A DNA stretch of 64,000 nucleotides from Candidatus Jettenia caeni (GCA_000296795.1 BAFH01000003.1:434401-498400); one strand, 5' to 3'. Shown: positions 6,031-14,585, counted from the stretch's first letter. Numbers and translations are program-made. Notes: generated by a model not told the origin, from the sequence alone.

Positions 6031-7404
6031 CTAGGTTACGATAGGGCAACCGATCGCAGAGCACGCAGTCATTGAGCCCAGCCAATTTTCTACTTCTTCG
6101 AATCCATTCTTTTTTAAGAGCGAAGCAGCAATGGTAGCTCTTTTTCCGGTGCTGCAAAATACGGTTAATGGGTGATGGTCTCCGGGAATTTTATCTAAAT
6201 TGTCAGGCAGTTCACCTACATAAACATTGACAGCATTCGGCAAGTGGCCTCTTTCAAATTCTTCTTTACTCCGGACATCCAGAAGAGTGAAATCTTCTTT
6301 AGTATTTATACGCCGTATAATTTCTCCTGCATAAACAGTAGGAATGCTTTCATACTTACGGCCGCTGATTTCCCATTTATGCACTCCCTTTTCAAGATAA
6401 CCAAAAATAGTATCATATCCGATTCGTATTAAATACCGGACAGCAGTCTCTACCTGATCGTACCCGTCAACAATTAATCCAATTGGCTTATCGTACGGCA
6501 GAAACCAACCGGCAAAAGAAGGAACCATTTCTAAAGGAATTGCAATACTACCGGGAATATACGCCCCTGCAAATGCCTCTGGACTGCGCACATCAAGTAT
6601 GATCATTTCTTCGTTCATAGCCGTCTTATCAAATTCTTCAACGTTACCGGGTGCAGGCTTTGGTAAGTTTTTCAGTAAAGGTGCGCCTTCCTGGTTTAGT
6701 CTATGCATTCTCTTAAAATAGGGCGGTTTATAATGATGTTCGTTAACTTTATGCCTGATAAACTCATCACGATTCTTCTGAAGGATGGGATTGTACTTGC
6801 GTTCATAACCGAGGGTTGAAAAATCTCTCGATGCAATACCGGCGCCACATACAGATCCGGCGCCGTGTGCCGGATGAATAATTACCTGGTCGCCCATCGG
6901 AAGGAGCTTTTTAAAAATGCTATTGTACAGGAGATCTGCAACCTCTTCAGGTTTGTCCGGGAAAAAATCAGTGCGCCCAACATCACCGATAAAAAGAGCG
7001 TCTCCGGTAAATACCGCTATCGGGTCTCTCGTGCTGAATTTTTTGTCAGCTAAAATGATTGAGATACTATCGTAGGTATGACCCGGCGTTTCAAGTATTC
7101 GAAGGATGCAATTTCCCAATAGAAAACAGTCGCCCTCAGATACAGGGTTTCCGTATTGAAAAGGAAGATGTTTACTATGATAAATCTCCGCCCCGGTCTG
7201 GTGCGCTAATTCTTTTGAGCCGATAAGGTAATCTTCATTACGATGTGTTTCGAAAATGTGGGTAATTTGCGTATCGTGCTGATAAGCAATATCTCTGTAG
7301 ATATCACAATCACGGCGGGGGTCAATTACCGCTGCCTTACCTTTATCACCGATAATATACGATAGGTGTGCAAGTCCTTCAGAACGAATTGTTTCAAGGA
7401 ACAT
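6031..7404 (-). CDS. Metallo-beta-lactamase fold protein with two rhodanese domains
   Basis: 457 residues: metallo-beta-lactamase domain (about 1-240), rhodanese domain 1 (about 255-350) and rhodanese domain 2 (about 355-457). This layout is shared with persulfide dioxygenase/sulfurtransferase-like proteins of sulfide detoxification. The usual HxHxDH metal motif reads HRNEDY (54-59), so only His54 and Asp58 remain; downstream ligands His109 (TPGHT), Asp135 (TGDALF) and His180 are present. Rhodanese domain 1 lacks a catalytic Cys (IVDGYDQ), while domain 2 has one (Cys417 in VFCSTGKRA). Sulfur transfer by domain 2 is plausible; hydrolase/dioxygenase chemistry is uncertain. No signal peptide is visible, so it should act in the cytoplasm. 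Confidence 0.9.
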   Translation of the reverse strand: MFLETIRSEGLAHLSYIIGDKGKAAVIDPRRDCDIYRDIAYQHDTQITHIFETHRNEDYLIGSKELAHQTGAEIYHSKHLPFQYGNPVSEGDCFLLGNCILRILETPGHTYDSISIILADKKFSTRDPIAVFTGDALFIGDVGRTDFFPDKPEEVADLLYNSIFKKLLPMGDQVIIHPAHGAGSVCGAGIASRDFSTLGYERKYNPILQKNRDEFIRHKVNEHHYKPPYFKRMHRLNQEGAPLLKNLPKPAPGNVEEFDKTAMNEEMIILDVRSPEAFAGAYIPGSIAIPLEMVPSFAGWFLPYDKPIGLIVDGYDQVETAVRYLIRIGYDTIFGYLEKGVHKWEISGRKYESIPTVYAGEIIRRINTKEDFTLLDVRSKEEFERGHLPNAVNVYVGELPDNLDKIPGDHHPLTVFCSTGKRATIAASLLKKNGFEEVENWLGSMTACSAIGCPIVT

Positions 7405-7469
7405 TGTTATGTCCTTTCCTTATTGAAAAATAAACCTCTTGGGGAATCTGTAGGGCAAGGTTAAAGCCC

Positions 7470-7752
7470 ATACGCATCAAGCTAAACGCTACCCGACTTG
7501 TTCCCAAACTCTGTTTGGGAACATGCATGTCCGAGAAACTCTGTTTCTCGAATCAAGAAGGTGCTGATCGTATGATCTCTCAGAACTATGGAATCTCGAA
7601 ACAGAGTTTCCAGGCAATTGTGTTCCCAAACAGAGTTTGGGAACAAGCTACTACAAGCCATAAGAACCATTATAGGCTCGAAGGGCTGGAAGGTCTATAG
7701 GCTAAGGATGAAGGCTCCCTGGATACAAAAATCCTTAGCTTGATGCATATGA
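7470..7752. repeat. MITE-like element of nested palindromes
   Basis: Outer inverted arms of 17 bases (CATACGCATCAAGCTAA at 7470-7486, its complement with one mismatch at 7736-7752) flank internal palindromes: GTTCCCAAAC..GTTTGGGAAC at 7500-7522 and again at 7622-7644, and CGAGAAAC..GTTTCTCG at 7532-7550. A copy of the outer arm occurs near 20755-20775. No transposase is encoded. The whole gap 7405-7845 holds no other feature apart from the promoter region of the metallo-beta-lactamase gene. Confidence 0.65.
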
Positions 7753-7845
7753 AGTTAAAGCCCTGCCTTAGGTTGGCTCTGTTTTTTCAGGAATTGTTGG
7801 CTGTTGTATGAAAAAAGCAATTGTATCTTGTATAAAATTATCCCA

Positions 7846-8313
7846 TTACCTCTTGCCTGCCATGGTATTTTGGTTGATGTAGTTTATAAAAAATTCCTTT
7901 AAACCAGGCACATTGCACTCAAAACCCATTGATTCGGCTTTCTGAAGCGCCTCCTCACCTGTCAGTCCCTCTTTTAAAGCTAAATATATCATGGCCAGCG
8001 CTCCGGAACGTTTTCCTGTGTGACAGTGAATAAATATCGGTTTCGGCATATGTTCAATTTCAGTGCGAAATTGATCAACTTGTTCTGACTTAGGCCCTTC
8101 TATTGAAGATACGGGAATATTCAGATATTCCATACCTGATTCCCGAACAAGTTCCCCCTCTTCCTGAGGTGAAAAAGACATATCTTCTTCTCCTCCTGAG
8201 GTACGGAGGTTAACTACCGATTTAAATCCCTGCTGAGGTAATTTTTTAATCTCCTCTTGTGATGGCTGACTTGAGGATGTGATATCCTCGCTGATTTTCA
8301 TCTGATCTTTCAT
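7846..8313 (-). CDS. BLH/DUF442-type protein phosphatase-like protein
   Basis: 155 residues with the fold signature of the beta-lactamase-hydrolase-like (BLH, DUF442) branch of protein tyrosine phosphatases. The N-terminal part has the characteristic pattern SSQPSQEEIKKL..GFKSVVNLR. The active-site loop is HCHTGKRSG, a CxxGxR(S) form typical of this branch, with Cys as predicted nucleophile. Relatives are often found next to or fused with metallo-beta-lactamase/rhodanese sulfur proteins; here that protein is the next gene downstream at 6031-7404, which supports a link to sulfide stress. It is apparently cytoplasmic. Confidence 0.85.
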   Translation of the reverse strand: MKDQMKISEDITSSSQPSQEEIKKLPQQGFKSVVNLRTSGGEEDMSFSPQEEGELVRESGMEYLNIPVSSIEGPKSEQVDQFRTEIEHMPKPIFIHCHTGKRSGALAMIYLALKEGLTGEEALQKAESMGFECNVPGLKEFFINYINQNTMAGKR

Positions 8314-8397: not shown

Positions 8398-8476
8398 GGT
8401 GGAGGCCGGAAAGGAGGGGAATCAATTTTCCGGTGGGCATGACCCTGATGGTAATTGATTATTTCAGACCTCCACC
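8398..8476. repeat. 3' hairpin element, copy 1 (after peroxidase gene 1)
   Basis: A 79-base element with outer inverted arms GGTGGAGGCC / acctCCACC and inner arms AATCAATT / AATTGATT. It begins with the conserved block GGTGGAGGCCGGAAAGGAGG on the plus strand. It lies within 11 bases of the stop codon of the minus-strand gene at 8487, so it would be in that gene's 3' untranslated region. Copies 2 and 3 follow the next two redox genes. Confidence 0.85.
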
Positions 8477-8486
8477 GCGCTATTTT

Positions 8487-10022
8487 TTATAGCTGGCGCA
8501 TAAATGCTACCAGGCCATTCTTTTCTTCCTGAGTAAGCTTTAAATTCAGAATAAGATTGAAGAATTCTACAGTATCCTCGAGTGTCAGAAGCCGGCCATC
8601 ATGCATATAAGGTGGCGAATCTTTAATTCCGCGAAGGGTGAAGGTTTTAATAGGGCCTTCAGCAGTAATCCATTGATCATGAATTATACGTGGATTATAA
8701 AAACGCTCAACCCTCAGGTTATGCATCTTATCATCAAGGTAAAATGGCGCAGGATGGCATTTTCCGCAGCGTCCCTTTCCAAAGAATACCGTTTGACCGA
8801 GAAGCTCTTCTTTTGATGCCTTTTCCGGATCAAGCATACCGAATTCGTCCAATTTTGGCGCTGGTGGAAAATCAAGTATATTCTGCATCTGTGCCATAAA
8901 GGATACCTGACTGGTGCGATCTGGAAGATTGGTTCCTTTTTTGGCCGCAGTCACCGTATCACCGTCAAAGTATGCTGTACGTTGCTCGAATTCTGTAAAA
9001 TCCTCAATAGACCTTAATGACCTTTTAGAACCGTGGATCTGTTGGTTAAACATCCCTCTCAGACTTGGGCTATCGAGTCTAAGACGAGCAGCATTAGGAC
9101 GGGTGTCGGGATTAAGATGAAAAGCGCCGTTCGTGTGACCATTAGCATGGCAGTCCAGGCACGAAACACCAAAACTCGCCTCCTCAACCAGTCTATCCTC
9201 GGTCTGATTGAATTGTTGTTGTGGGAATGGGGTGAGGAGTAATCTCAGGCCCTCCATTTGAACAGGTGTCAGGATGCCGGTCATAATCTCGTAGTAATTT
9301 TTGAGGGAAAGGAGCTTTCCTTGCGATACATCTCCTAAATATGGCCGTGTTGTTAAGAAAATAGGAGGTGGAAATTCTGGCAGAAAATGGTCTGGAATAT
9401 CAAAATCGACATCAAACCGTTCAAGAGATCGCTTTTCCAGCTTCAGTATTTCATCACTATGGAACTTCGGAAAAACCTGACCTCCAACTGCATGTTTCAC
9501 ATGGGGAAGAGGTAAGAAACCTTTTGGAAATAAATCATTGTTCCGAATTTCTTCGGGTGACATTTCGGATAGCTTTTCCCAGGTCATTTGCTCAGGTAGT
9601 TTAACCCTTACGCCTTCCTGAATAGGTTTACCACGGGACATTGTCACGCCCGTAGCCGGATGGTCGTTTAAGTCATAGCGATCATTCAGTAAACTCCTCT
9701 GATTTTCCATTACCTTAGGTTTTTCTTCCTTCATCCTGGACATAACTGTTGGAAAGTCCTCTTTGATAATAATAGGAAAATAAAAAGTCGGTCCCCTGTT
9801 TTCGGGTAATTTTGGGCCAGGTACTTTTTCCTCATGCGATTGAGCGCTTTTCAATGATCGGGAATGGCTTTCCTTCTTTATAGTCTTATTGTTTGCTGGC
9901 TCTCGCTTCGTATCTTTTTTGCGTACAGGTTCTTGTGCACAGGCAGTACTTAATAAAACACATCCTGCGGTAAGCAGTATGAGCAACTGTATTGTTCGAA
10001 ACCCCTGCGCTTTTTTTCTCAT
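8487..10022 (-). CDS. Exported di-heme cytochrome c peroxidase/MauG-like protein (1)
   Basis: 511 residues with an N-terminal export signal; a Cys at 21 or 28 could make it a lipoprotein, but the lipobox is weak. Two c-type heme sites are visible: CLDCH (288-292) and CGKCH (419-423). The C-terminal block SPPYMHDGRLLTLEDTVEFF (469-488) is typical of the bacterial di-heme peroxidase/MauG superfamily. Expected role is periplasmic peroxide reduction or an oxidation using two hemes. Residues 30-75 are a charged linker, and 76-280 are a long region not found in the short (about 330-residue) classical enzymes. It is paralogous to the next gene upstream, and a shared hairpin element follows its stop codon. 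Confidence 0.85.
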   Translation of the reverse strand: MRKKAQGFRTIQLLILLTAGCVLLSTACAQEPVRKKDTKREPANNKTIKKESHSRSLKSAQSHEEKVPGPKLPENRGPTFYFPIIIKEDFPTVMSRMKEEKPKVMENQRSLLNDRYDLNDHPATGVTMSRGKPIQEGVRVKLPEQMTWEKLSEMSPEEIRNNDLFPKGFLPLPHVKHAVGGQVFPKFHSDEILKLEKRSLERFDVDFDIPDHFLPEFPPPIFLTTRPYLGDVSQGKLLSLKNYYEIMTGILTPVQMEGLRLLLTPFPQQQFNQTEDRLVEEASFGVSCLDCHANGHTNGAFHLNPDTRPNAARLRLDSPSLRGMFNQQIHGSKRSLRSIEDFTEFEQRTAYFDGDTVTAAKKGTNLPDRTSQVSFMAQMQNILDFPPAPKLDEFGMLDPEKASKEELLGQTVFFGKGRCGKCHPAPFYLDDKMHNLRVERFYNPRIIHDQWITAEGPIKTFTLRGIKDSPPYMHDGRLLTLEDTVEFFNLILNLKLTQEEKNGLVAFMRQL

Positions 10023-10083
10023 ATATTTCTCCTTATATCTTATCTATTTGATATCACCTGAACGGAAAACCGGGAGAACATCA

Positions 10084-10157
10084 GGTGGAGGCCGGAAAGG
10101 AGGGGAATCAATTTTTGGATGCCGTATATTGGCGATTGATTATTTCAGACCTCCACC
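10084..10157. repeat. 3' hairpin element, copy 2 (after peroxidase gene 2)
   Basis: A 74-base copy, almost identical to copy 3 and sharing with copy 1 both ends and the GGAAAGGAGGGGAATCAATT block. It lies 13 bases past the stop codon of the minus-strand gene at 10171 and upstream of the next peroxidase gene. Confidence 0.88.
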
Positions 10158-10170
10158 ACTCTAGTATTTT

Positions 10171-11913
10171 TTATAGCCGTAGCATGAATGCTACAAGATC
10201 CTTCTTCTCTTCCTGGGTAAGTTTGAGCTCAAAAATCAGATTGAAAAACTCTACTGCATCATCCAGGGTTAATAATCTTCCATCATGGAAATATGGTGGA
10301 GAGTCCTTTATACCGCGTAAGGGAAATGTCTTGACAGGACCATCGGGGGCAGCCATTACACCATTGGTCAAACATGGCTCGTAAAATCGTTCGAGTTTCA
10401 GATCGTGCCTTTTGTTATCTGTGTAGGCAGGTGCTGGGTGGCAAACGCCACATTTAGCTTTCCCGAAGAATAATGCCTGGCCACGCGTCTCTGATTCTTT
10501 TGGATTCTGTTTAGGATCCAGCATGCCATACGCATCAAGCATAGGAGCAGGAGGAAAATCCAACATCCTCTGAAATTCAGCCATAGCTTCTACCTGGAGC
10601 CGGTCAGGCTGAAAAACTCCCTTCTTTGCTGCCGTTACATGATCGCCATCGAAATAGGCAGTCCGTTGCTCAAACTCGCTGAAATCCTCTATTGTTTGAA
10701 TAGACCGCTGCAAACCAAAGAACTGTTGTGCATATACACCTCGCATGGTTGGAGTATCGAGACGTTTACGAAATGGTTGAGGACGCAGATCCTGGAGAAG
10801 CTCTGTACTTCCATTGGTATGTCCGTTTACATGACAATCCAGGCAGGCAACTCCAAGCGTTGCATGTTCAGTACGGCGATCATCCGTTTGGTTGAATTCC
10901 TGCTGGGGAAAAGGAGTTACTAATAACCTCAAACCTTCAAGTTGCTTAGGATTCAATATACCCTTGAATATATCAGAAAAATTTTTAATATTTACCAATT
11001 TGCCCTGGGTAACATCACCGAGATCTGGCCGGGTAGTAAGAAATAACGGTGGTGGGAATTCAGGTAAAAAATGATCCGGCAGGTCAAAATCCACATCAAA
11101 CCGATTCAAGTCTCTATCCTCCAATCTCTTGATCTCATCAATCTCGGATTTAATAAAGACCATGCCTCCAATTGCATGGTTAGGATGAGGTAAGGGCAGA
11201 AACCCTTGAGGGAAGAGTCCTTTTCTTTCGATATCTTCAGAACTCATCATTCCTAATTTATCCCATGTCATACCTCCTGCTGCCAGTTTTACCCGTACGC
11301 CCTCCTGTACCGGTTTACCCCGGGACATTTTTATACCCTGAGCCGGTTTGTTACTGAGGTCATAGCGTTCTTCAAGTAAGGCATTATGCAGTTTTGCCGC
11401 TTCGGGTTTTGCAGCTTTCATCTTTTCCATCATCATGTCAAAAGGTTCTTTTATGGCAATAGGGAGAAAACTGGTACCCATCCTTTTCTCTATTTCCATC
11501 CTCTGCACAGGTGTTATCCTGGACTTTCCTTCATTACCTTCTTTTAGCCCGGTCATCAACTGCTTTTCTGCTTCGGATATCTCTCTTTTGCCAAACATAA
11601 TCTCTTTTTTAGACACCTGTTTCCCGTCCATCATCATCTTCTCAGATTCTACATCCTGGCCTTCCATTATCTTCTTCCCAGGCTCCTCTTTTTGGCCTGG
11701 GGCTGTTTCCTTTCCCATTATCCCTTCTTTAATATCTTTCATTTCCTTTTTAAAAGTCTCTACCACATCGGAAGTCATCTCTATATCAAAAATCATTCCC
11801 TGTCCCGGCTCTTTATCCTTTTCAGATTCATAAGCAAAGGTAGCTCCTGTGAGAACGCATCCTATAGTGAGCGCTCCTAATAAATTTCCTGTTACAAATT
11901 TCATTTTTTTCAT
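10171..11913 (-). CDS. Exported di-heme cytochrome c peroxidase/MauG-like protein (2), Met-rich N-terminal extension
   Basis: 580 residues with a cleavable signal peptide (core GNLLGALTIGCVLTGATFA, 9-27). Heme-binding motifs are CLDCH (357-361) and CGVCH (488-492), and the family block SPPYFHDGRLLTLDDAVEFF lies at 538-557. From about residue 150 it aligns along its length with the neighbouring paralogue (RGKPVQEGVRVKL, FDVDFDLPDHFLPEFPPP and FPQQEFNQT all match closely). Residues 30-150 are an extra Met-, Lys- and Glu-rich segment, including a run of three Met at 93-95, which may be metal-binding or disordered. Probably a periplasmic peroxidase. Gene order peroxidase 2-peroxidase 1 on the same strand points to tandem duplication. 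Confidence 0.87.
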   Translation of the reverse strand: MKKMKFVTGNLLGALTIGCVLTGATFAYESEKDKEPGQGMIFDIEMTSDVVETFKKEMKDIKEGIMGKETAPGQKEEPGKKIMEGQDVESEKMMMDGKQVSKKEIMFGKREISEAEKQLMTGLKEGNEGKSRITPVQRMEIEKRMGTSFLPIAIKEPFDMMMEKMKAAKPEAAKLHNALLEERYDLSNKPAQGIKMSRGKPVQEGVRVKLAAGGMTWDKLGMMSSEDIERKGLFPQGFLPLPHPNHAIGGMVFIKSEIDEIKRLEDRDLNRFDVDFDLPDHFLPEFPPPLFLTTRPDLGDVTQGKLVNIKNFSDIFKGILNPKQLEGLRLLVTPFPQQEFNQTDDRRTEHATLGVACLDCHVNGHTNGSTELLQDLRPQPFRKRLDTPTMRGVYAQQFFGLQRSIQTIEDFSEFEQRTAYFDGDHVTAAKKGVFQPDRLQVEAMAEFQRMLDFPPAPMLDAYGMLDPKQNPKESETRGQALFFGKAKCGVCHPAPAYTDNKRHDLKLERFYEPCLTNGVMAAPDGPVKTFPLRGIKDSPPYFHDGRLLTLDDAVEFFNLIFELKLTQEEKKDLVAFMLRL

Positions 11914-12147
11914 ATCCTTCTCCTTGCTTAAGACTATTTTTACCCTGAATTATATACCTGCAAACTTCTCAACAAAGACAATACCCGACTCATGAATTTT
12001 CTGTCGGGTATTATTTAGTAAATTTATTTCTATCTGCTTCTCTATTTCTTAGCATAAATTTCAAAATTACTAGCCGAAGGATTTTTTAGCATTCTCAATT
12101 TCATTCTTACTTACGAAACGTATGAATGGAACTATCATGGAAAATCG

Positions 12148-12221
12148 GGTGGAGGCCGGAAAGGAGGGGAATCAATTTTTGGATGCCGTATATTGGCAAT
12201 TGATTGTTTCAGGCCTCCACC
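12148..12221. repeat. 3' hairpin element, copy 3 (after superoxide dismutase gene)
   Basis: A 74-base copy differing from copy 2 at only a few positions. The outer arms here are GGTGGAGGCC and GGCCTCCACC, a perfect 10-bp stem. It ends 29 bases beyond the stop of the minus-strand superoxide dismutase gene. The 3' ends of all three redox genes in this cluster therefore carry the element. Confidence 0.88.
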
Positions 12222-12249: not shown

Positions 12250-12978
12250 CTATTTTATCATACTTGCCTCTGCGGGGATGGGACGGTTAGCTAATCTCGA
12301 TTCCGCAGCAGACCAATTAATATTCTTAAAGAAAGCCTCAATATAATCAGTCTTCTTTATACCGTAATCAGGCATAAAGGCATGCTCAAACACATCCATT
12401 ATTAAAATAAGGTTACCGCCTGCAAGATGGTTGGTATTATGTTCATCTATCCAAAAATTAACAAGTTTTCCATTTGTAGTATCCTGATATAAAGCGGCCC
12501 AACCTATACCCCTCATTCCTCCTACTGCCCTGAAATCTTTTTCCCATGCACTATAGCTTCCAAAATCATCGTTTAGCCTTTTATTAAGGGTTTTTCCTAT
12601 ATCAGTACGGTTTTTCGTCAGATTTTCAAAATAATATTCATGAAGCCTCATCCCATTGTATTCCCATCCAAGTCTTCTCTTTAGCCCGGCAAACTCCGGA
12701 CTGCTTATGTTTCCATCTTCTAATATCTGTGATAGAGCGTTTACGAGCTTATTCGTATTTTTCACATACCCCTGGTAAAGAGTAAAATGGGTTTTTAAAG
12801 CATTTTCACTAAATCCATCTATTCCTATCAAACTTGAGTAGTCCTTTGCGTTATAATTCTCTGGCATGCTCTTTGTTTCCTTCTCCAATGTTTTTGCATT
12901 GAGATATGAAGTATTGCCAAGGAATAAAGCCGCTCCACCTACACCTGATGCTGTGAGAAATTCGCGTCTATTAAACAT
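12250..12978 (-). CDS. Exported Fe/Mn superoxide dismutase
   Basis: 242 residues. The N terminus has a Tat-like signal (NRREFLTASGVGG, then a hydrophobic stretch), pointing to export in folded form with its metal. The metal ligands are all present: His64, His113 (RLHEYYFENL), Asp195 and His199 (MDVFEHAF). It dismutates superoxide to oxygen and hydrogen peroxide; the product could be removed by the adjacent di-heme peroxidases. Metal specificity cannot be fixed from sequence, although the family segment GWAALYQD is conserved. It lies at the promoter-proximal end of a same-strand cluster, but gaps of over 200 bases suggest separate transcripts. A 74-base hairpin element follows the stop. Confidence 0.93.
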   Translation of the reverse strand: MFNRREFLTASGVGGAALFLGNTSYLNAKTLEKETKSMPENYNAKDYSSLIGIDGFSENALKTHFTLYQGYVKNTNKLVNALSQILEDGNISSPEFAGLKRRLGWEYNGMRLHEYYFENLTKNRTDIGKTLNKRLNDDFGSYSAWEKDFRAVGGMRGIGWAALYQDTTNGKLVNFWIDEHNTNHLAGGNLILIMDVFEHAFMPDYGIKKTDYIEAFFKNINWSAAESRLANRPIPAEASMIK

Positions 12979-13434: not shown

Positions 13435-14585
13435 GGCTTTGTTGCACAAAGCCGGATAAATATCTGATATACTAAGAGAATAAGGGAAAGAGTACCATAA
13501 ATTATTTTGTAGGATAAGTATATCAGTATGAAGCAACAGAAACGGGACGTAAAGAAACTAGCAGGAACAGATAAAAGGCCGCTCCAAGAACAGAAAAAGA
13601 AGAAATCAAAGAAGGACTACCGGGTAAGAAACTGGTCAGAGTATACAGAGGCATTAAGACAAAGAGGGTCTCTTGATGTATGGATAGATGAGGGGGTACA
13701 AGAGAAATGGAATGCAGAGCCAACGGGCCAAAGAGGGTCTCCCCCTACGTATAGTGATCTGGCCATAACATCAACGCTTCAGTTGGGTATCGTATTTCAT
13801 CAAAGACTTCGTCAAACAGAAGGATTAGTCAAATCACTGTTTCGGCTCATGAATATCCCTCTGAAGGTTCCTGATTATTCAACCCTGTCTCGAAGAGGTG
13901 AAACAGTGGGAATTTCTTTAGCGAAAGAGAAGAAAGAGAATCTGGTATTAGTCCTTGATAGCAGTGGGTTAAAGGTCTATGGGGAAGGGGAATGGAAGGT
14001 AAGACAGCATGGATATACCAAGAGAAGAACATGGAGAAAGATTCATTTGTCCATTACTCCTGATGGAGAGATAAGAGCACAAGAGCTTACCGAGAATAGT
14101 ACTGGTGATTCAGAGGTAGTAGATAAGCTTCTAAGCCAGGAAGAGTCAAGGATTGATACCTTTGCCGGTGATGGCTCCTATGATAAGAGGAAGGTCTATG
14201 AGAGTTGTAAGAGAAGAGGGATTCTCAGAATACTTATTCCTCCGAGGAAGGATGCAAAGATATGGCAGCATGGCAACTGCAGTACAGAGCCACATGTCCG
14301 AGATGAGACGATAAGGCATATCAGAAGAACTTCCCTAAGACAGTGGAAAGAGCGTGTTGGTTACCACGTCCGCTCTCTGGTTGAGAATGCGATATTTCGA
14401 TTCAAAACCATCTTTGGCGATAGGCTTTATGCCAGAAATCTTGCTCAACAAAGAACAGAAGTAGGTATCAAGGCATCTGTTTTAAACCGTATGATGAAAT
14501 TAGGAATGCCGGAAAGTTATGCGATCTCATAAATTGCATACTACAGGGAAAAACTGCTTTTTTATCGGATTTGTGCAACAAAGCC
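13435..14585 (+). mobile_element. IS5 family, IS903-type insertion sequence, copy A
   Basis: A 1151-bp element with terminal inverted repeats GGCTTTGTTGCACAAA at both ends, closely resembling the GGCTTTGTTG ends of IS903. It is flanked by 9-bp direct repeats GGAAAATTG (13426-13434 and 14586-14594), the target duplication length expected for IS903-type elements. The intact duplication shows a simple insertion with no rearrangement at its ends afterwards. An almost identical copy lies in the opposite orientation at 24218-25368. Confidence 0.95.
13528..14532 (+). CDS. IS5/IS903-type DDE transposase, copy A
   Basis: A 334-residue transposase inside IS copy A, starting after a short basic N terminus. 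The DDE triad can be placed at the Asp of VLDSSGLKVYG, the Asp of FAGDGSYDKRKVYE, and the Glu of SLVENAIFRFK followed by the Arg/Lys spacing of the IS5 group. Length is normal and there is no frameshift, so it is probably active. It differs from the second copy by at least two bases in the coding region, one silent near 13690 and one changing Arg to Cys near codon 321. Confidence 0.95.
   Translation: MKQQKRDVKKLAGTDKRPLQEQKKKKSKKDYRVRNWSEYTEALRQRGSLDVWIDEGVQEKWNAEPTGQRGSPPTYSDLAITSTLQLGIVFHQRLRQTEGLVKSLFRLMNIPLKVPDYSTLSRRGETVGISLAKEKKENLVLVLDSSGLKVYGEGEWKVRQHGYTKRRTWRKIHLSITPDGEIRAQELTENSTGDSEVVDKLLSQEESRIDTFAGDGSYDKRKVYESCKRRGILRILIPPRKDAKIWQHGNCSTEPHVRDETIRHIRRTSLRQWKERVGYHVRSLVENAIFRFKTIFGDRLYARNLAQQRTEVGIKASVLNRMMKLGMPESYAIS

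Follow-up and report, generated by a model that had tools for sequence, protein, structure and literature searches.

Hairpins that expose an anti-Shine-Dalgarno (anti-SD) motif in repeated copies have been described in alphaproteobacteria for the alpha-r14/cuckoo (NfeR1) and CcsR1-4 RNAs (PMC10746234, PMC8307010, PMC10253847), and the repeated hairpins of alpha-r14 hold an identical C-rich anti-SD motif, CCUCCUCCC, in unpaired regions (PMC10746234). In Staphylococcus aureus, an anti-SD motif (UCCCCU, UCCCCUG) located in the icaR 3' untranslated region (3'-UTR) pairs with the SD of its own message (PMC3868564), and in Streptomyces the 3'-UTR of sodF is processed into a small RNA (sRNA), s-SodF, which has a 19-nt match to its target sodN (PMC3919588). 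Here we describe a hairpin of 74–79 nt that stands after three genes, encoding homologues of a superoxide dismutase (SOD) and of two paralogous di-heme peroxidases (px1 and px2), in a stretch of 64,000 nucleotides from Candidatus Jettenia caeni (GCA_000296795.1 BAFH01000003.1:434401-498400; the whole stretch is called the window, and positions are counted from its first letter). To our knowledge, post-transcriptional control in anammox planctomycetes is almost unexplored, and oxygen handling by these anaerobes is a question of practical weight. The hairpin is confined to the SOD/peroxidase cluster genes in two anammox genera, and the near-perfect conservation of 25 of its bases points to a shared, hitherto undescribed control signal at the ends of their messages.

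The near-identical element that the earlier note had reported after three genes of redox defence was confirmed in three copies, all on the minus strand: 74 nt after SOD (12148–12221; RNA 5'-GGUGGAGGCC...AUUCCCCUCCUUUCCGGCCUCCACC-3'), 74 nt after px1 (10084–10157, 95% identical to the SOD copy) and 79 nt after px2 (8398–8476, with a diverged apical loop). The spacing between stop codon and element is 28 nt for SOD, 13 nt for px1 and 10 nt for px2; of the distances given before (29, 13 and 11), that of px1 was right and the other two were each off by one. The outer arms on the gene strand are GGTGGAGGYC/GGCCTCCACC, and three invariant T lie 3' of the stem in all copies, in a T-rich trailer (4–6 of 8). 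Each copy contains the same 25-nt block, read on the minus strand of the SOD copy as 5'-ATTCCCCTCCTTTCCGGCCTCCACC (12148–12172, with the unpaired bulge CCCCTCC at 12163–12169) and found again at 10084–10108 after px1 and at 8398–8422 after px2. The 20-mer shared by these blocks, GGAAAGGAGGGGAATCAATT, occurs exactly three times in the window and was not found in any of 100 dinucleotide-shuffled windows, even when up to 3 mismatches were allowed.

Searches by BLAST and by covariance model, which followed up the earlier note's proposal of a genome-wide search, recovered exactly three copies in the whole 4.09 Mb, 4-contig genome, each directly after SOD, px1 or px2. The survey of relatives covered 98 genomes with BLAST and 117 with the covariance model, the genome itself being counted. 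Both other Jettenia genomes have three copies each in the same cluster, and Ca. Loosdrechtia aerotolerans, with the same gene neighbourhood, has two, after SOD and px1 and not after px2, which brings the known copies to 11; among named records, exact element matches came from Ca. Jettenia ecosi and Ca. Loosdrechtia aerotolerans. The exclusive placement at the 3' ends of functionally linked genes, claimed for the window, thus holds for the entire genome and for a second genus. A mobile or dispersed repeat, already held unlikely, was rejected for the genomes searched, since three copies in one cluster are not the many dispersed copies of a REP/REPIN or mobile repeat. In the remaining 113 of the 117 genomes the covariance model gave no convincing copy, and the element was not found in the second Loosdrechtia species or in most other Brocadiaceae searched, where SOD and/or peroxidase homologues are present. 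A diverged form was looked for at other peroxidase loci, and no CCTCC was seen within 160 nt of the stop codon in 24 homologues.

Several weaker matches were discarded. Those of the model in two order-level genomes (E 0.02–0.05) lack the outer stem or the block, the one-mismatch block matches in other Brocadiaceae come with no element and with alignments of at most 16 bits or none, and the exact 17- and 20-mer matches outside anammox bacteria (viral contigs, an actinomycete, a Flavobacteriales genome) are likewise without the element. At the gathering threshold Rfam gave no match for the elements, and at E ≤ 2 only two spurious CRISPR-repeat matches, both outside them. In the genome G001, px2 (L046 about 6758–8312) has apparently lost its last ~31 residues, with a stop codon ~108 nt before the element, which is kept.

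The copies are unevenly conserved along their length. In the 25-nt 3' block AUUCCCCUCCUUUCCGGCCUCCACC a single substitution was seen across all 11 copies, and no position separates the genera; the middle part of the element, by contrast, has 16 fixed differences (Fisher p = 6e-4). The cluster genes of Jettenia and Loosdrechtia differ at 51–61% of their four-fold sites, and their proteins are 67–74% identical. Within Jettenia, the orthologous SOD and px1 copies carry 0–1 changes in 76 nt, compared with 10–15% at the four-fold sites of those genes. Both genera keep the outer stem, along with an unpaired CCCCUCC bulge that is as invariant as the stem. A parallel decay of a duplicated module, which had been offered as one explanation, does not fit a block that is nearly unchanged despite such four-fold divergence, and there is good support for viewing the element as 3'-UTR RNA under selection.

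On the gene strand, the RNA was predicted to fold into a 10-bp stem, a 3–4-bp stem, an asymmetric CCCCUCC bulge and a lineage-specific inner hairpin. Every copy forms GGUGGAGGYC/GGCCUCCACC, a constant 1 × 1 mismatch, GAA(A)/UUUC and, on the 3' side, the CCCCUCC bulge, which is predicted to be unpaired with a probability of at least 0.96 in 11 of 11 copies; the loop enclosed by the outer stem exceeds 50 nt. The z-scores of gene-strand folding against shuffles ranged from −2.9 to −5.8, and in each of the five copies for which both strands were compared they were better than those of the other strand, which supports the earlier suggestion of an untranslated RNA element. The nested arms AATCAATT/AATTGATT, described before as an inner stem, are real in the Jettenia copies and absent from Loosdrechtia: the inner part consists of AAUCAAU/AUUGAUU and a small apical hairpin in the former, and of CGCC/GGCG only in the latter. 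The apical hairpin is UGCC/GGCA in the Jettenia SOD copy and CGCC/GGCG in Loosdrechtia, with a C/A intermediate in the Jettenia px1 copy; a single compensatory change is a plausible reading of this difference.

A mechanism can be proposed from these features. The element would be transcribed with the SOD and peroxidase cistrons, at their 3' ends, where the 10-bp stem and the short T-rich trailer would form or protect the end of the mRNA as a weak terminator or a decay block. The always-exposed CCCCUCC(UUUC), resembling the anti-SD tail of 16S rRNA, would pair with the SDs of messages in cis or in trans, SOD's own SD (AAGGAGG) being among the candidates, and this pairing would tune the translation or the decay of the cluster messages together. 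CCTCCTTTC is common to the 25-nt block and the 3' tail of this genome's 16S rRNA (GGATCACCTCCTTTCTAA), and the predicted pairing of the SOD SD with the block amounts to −12.2 kcal/mol in Jettenia and −12.0 kcal/mol in Loosdrechtia, values equalled by 11–14% of the open reading frames (ORFs) of the window. The complement of the block is in itself an SD sequence, and two extra perfect 13-nt complements occur in Jettenia genomes, each just upstream of a possible start codon and in SD-like placement. To a transcribed 3'-UTR structure that is selected as RNA, and that may combine a 3'-end role with an SD-pairing bulge, we assign a probability of about 0.4; that the hairpin is a 3'-UTR RNA element of one kind or the other, with SD pairing or as a plain 3'-end structure, appears probable.

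On the other hand, several results weigh against this proposal. The 9-nt match to the 16S tail was reached in ~1% of composition-preserving shuffles of the block, in a comparison picked post hoc, and the SDs of the cluster are good, not exceptional, partners, as 11–47% of 36 window ORFs score as well. In five folded intergenic mRNAs, the predicted probability that the block pairs in cis with the SD of the next gene was 0.000, and a search for a perfect-complement trans target common to the species returned single unrelated genes in two of them. Loosdrechtia, as said, lacks the copy after px2. A terminator scan with an 8-nt loop limit, which excludes the element, did not call it, and the T-rich trailer is weak. 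The compensatory stem changes by which the earlier note wished its proposal to be judged were hardly seen: since the outer stem barely varies, RNAalifold gave minimal covariation support (of 21 consensus pairs, one has a two-sided change), which leaves the stem neither proven nor excluded on this ground. Because of the frequency of the 16S match in shuffles and of the lack of predicted cis pairing, the anti-SD mechanism is only moderately supported.

The copies cluster by genus and not by gene and, therefore, evolve in concert. In their tree the genera separate with 100% bootstrap, a gene-wise tree is rejected (approximately unbiased test, p = 4e-8), and the SOD and px1 copies show 16 genus-fixed columns and zero gene-fixed ones. 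Between genera the orthologous px genes share 70–72% of their nucleotides, whereas the paralogues px1 and px2 share about 60%, so that the px1/px2 split predates the genera; it follows that the copies were homogenised or re-copied after the genus split, in at least one lineage. Homogenisation must have been infrequent, since paralogue-specific letters are stable across the three Jettenia species. The copies probably arose with a tandem duplication of the peroxidase unit and were afterwards made alike within each lineage, gene conversion being the probable means; duplication with later homogenisation is a good account of their origin. In Loosdrechtia, the noncoding DNA from SOD to its element (L048 9593–9640) bears a weak likeness to the 3' ends of peroxidase genes (TTYATGCGG...). 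When the 60 nt before this element were compared with peroxidase gene ends, the best p was about 0.0025, uncorrected, which is suggestive only of a remnant of a deleted peroxidase copy.

The main rival to SD pairing is a terminator or stability role of the stem. According to this explanation each cistron would end in an atypical intrinsic terminator or in a REP-like block to decay, and the CCCCUCC bulge would have no base-pairing role. The position of the window copies 10–28 nt past the stop codons, the GC-rich 10-bp stem and the trailer with its three invariant T are what such a structure would show, and a promoter-like stretch upstream of px1, apparently conserved between genera on inspection, fits separate transcripts. 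However, a loop of more than 50 nt and a T tract of 4–6 of 8 count against it, the Loosdrechtia SOD copy lies ~88 nt beyond the stop codon, and a bulge as invariant as the stem is unnecessary for termination; we consider the plain structure rather unlikely. The same hairpin could be read from the other side, as a 5'-leader attenuator or riboswitch-like structure of the downstream genes (px1, px2 and the phosphatase gene described below), given that each copy is also followed, at 61–234 nt, by the start codon of the next gene in the same orientation. These distances vary widely, though (234, 61 and 84; 128 and 77), the two genera have little sequence in common from the px1 element to the px2 start, alternative SD pairing is not predicted, and an antiterminator-like pairing of G000, CACCTGA/TCAGGTG, is on inspection disrupted in both G001 and G002, all of which makes a leader improbable.

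A 25-bp block kept letter by letter, with a purine-rich plus strand that has six GG runs, could act at the level of DNA, either as the binding site of a protein or as a G-rich (G4-prone) site that causes stalling on the template strand. However, RNA folding of the gene strand beats shuffles, and does so more than that of the opposite strand; besides, the 10-bp arm is ~50 bp off at variable spacing, and the copies always follow stop codons, with none found upstream of SOD, so that we hold this explanation, too, to be quite improbable. Very improbable, in our opinion, is a neutral by-product, in which a peroxidase tail was copied by tandem duplication and gene conversion alone keeps the copies similar. 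It would account for px1 and px2 tails that can be aligned through the stop codon into the element, for the copies being homogenised by genus and for the weak peroxidase-end likeness before the Loosdrechtia SOD element (the p value given above). Yet conversion within a genome cannot hold the block constant between genera that differ at 51–61% of four-fold sites, and the stable paralogue-specific differences in three Jettenia species imply that conversion is rare, while orthologous copies barely change. A plus-strand peptide using GGAAAGGAGG as SD was also rejected, as frames and starts are not kept: on inspection, the differing element lengths shift the frame, and an ATG is missing at this place in Loosdrechtia. 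An integron attC site was rejected because, on inspection, the ends are GGTGGAGG/CCTCCACC and not the R'/R'' core sites RYYYAAC...GTTRRRY.

On the minus strand the gene order is SOD (12250–12978), px1 (10171–11913), px2 (8487–10022), a BLH/DSP-type phosphatase-like (TIGR01244-like) gene downstream of the third copy (7846–8313) and an MBL-rhodanese protein gene (6031–7404). The identities proposed earlier hold broadly. SOD (242 aa), exported by twin-arginine translocation (TAT) to judge from a TAT-signal match, is a homologue of Fe/Mn-type enzymes, with a match to Pfam Sod_Fe_C (E = 5e-24); px1 (580 aa, CxxCH at residues 357 and 488) is a MauG/CcpA-like di-heme peroxidase homologue, and its paralogue px2 (511 aa, CxxCH at residues 288 and 419) matches the solved di-heme peroxidase structure 1iqc (E = 2e-7), both having sub-threshold MauG-type NCBIfam matches. 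A 2023 study argued that the Brocadiaceae Sod is without His24 and His75 and is probably non-functional (PMC10156729). In a pairwise alignment, H64, H113, D195 and H199 of the window SOD stand opposite the corresponding residues of the Aquifex SOD, and this retention of candidate metal ligands is at odds with that statement. Because these residues are kept, a role in redox defence is plausible for the SOD gene, if unproven.

Further features were observed around the cluster. A DDE transposase gene (DDE_Tnp_1/DDE_Tnp_1_5; 13528–14532) lies directly upstream of SOD, and the corresponding place in Loosdrechtia is without a transposase. A second peroxidase-SOD pair, 65% and 63% identical, is found at G000:C2:475303-477371 in reversed order (peroxidase, then SOD), with the two genes ~20 nt apart; it carries no element, and its SOD match has one in-frame TAA inside the aligned span. 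A second hairpin, AATACCCGAC/GTCGGGTATT, occupies 11980–12012 in the interval from the SOD element to px1, and GTCTTTGTTG comes next on the gene strand. Its stem has compensatory substitutions in G001 (CCTAAC/GTTAGG) and is changed in G002 as well, so that the hairpin appears to be a genuine terminator-like structure. A perfect 27-nt inverted repeat (7497–7647, arms 7497–7523 and 7621–7647), which separates the phosphatase-like gene from that of the MBL-rhodanese protein, has a nested imperfect repeat inside and looks like a separate palindromic or miniature inverted-repeat transposable element (MITE)-like repeat.

We tentatively put forward, as a possibility that we still regard as doubtful, that a new RNA family is present, in which one anti-SD hairpin stands at the 3' ends of the genes of an oxidative-defence cluster and gene conversion keeps its copies alike. 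If this were true, all messages of the module would carry one post-transcriptional signal, read for example through mutual SD capture or by a common protein or sRNA partner, and the cluster would offer a clean bacterial case of a modular 3'-UTR 'regulon tag' with few copies, strong constraint and concerted evolution. The element, being compact and portable, would lend itself to tests in a model host.

REP/REPIN palindromes and intrinsic terminators are GC-rich hairpins after stop codons, as is the element, which differs from them in its three copies per genome within one cluster, its invariant unpaired bulge and its long structured loop. With the alpha-r14/cuckoo and CcsR RNAs it shares repeated hairpins that hold an identical unpaired C-rich anti-SD motif. 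The motif here, however, is CCCCUCCUUUCC in an asymmetric bulge and not CCUCCUCCC in a loop, CCUCC alone being shared and exposed, and each hairpin follows a different long enzyme gene instead of belonging to a tandem sRNA array; phylum and genes also differ, and the present element is known from its sequence and predicted fold. No sRNA family in Rfam matched it, the presence of a cuckoo model in that database having been left unchecked. As in icaR, an anti-SD motif is located in a 3'-UTR and the SD of the same message, that of SOD, is a good predicted partner; there, one long 3'-UTR of one mRNA carries the motif 260 nt past the stop codon, whereas here a compact hairpin has been copied onto three genes and the pairing is predicted. 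s-SodF is similar in being a ~90-nt RNA from the 3'-UTR of a superoxide dismutase gene that covers a ribosome-binding site, and differs in its specific target, no comparable one having been found here. Since motif and placement differ and Rfam gave no match, we do not file the element under any of these systems; by analogy, the alpha-r14/cuckoo and CcsR RNAs, the icaR 3'-UTR and s-SodF are the working analogues that it would most resemble.

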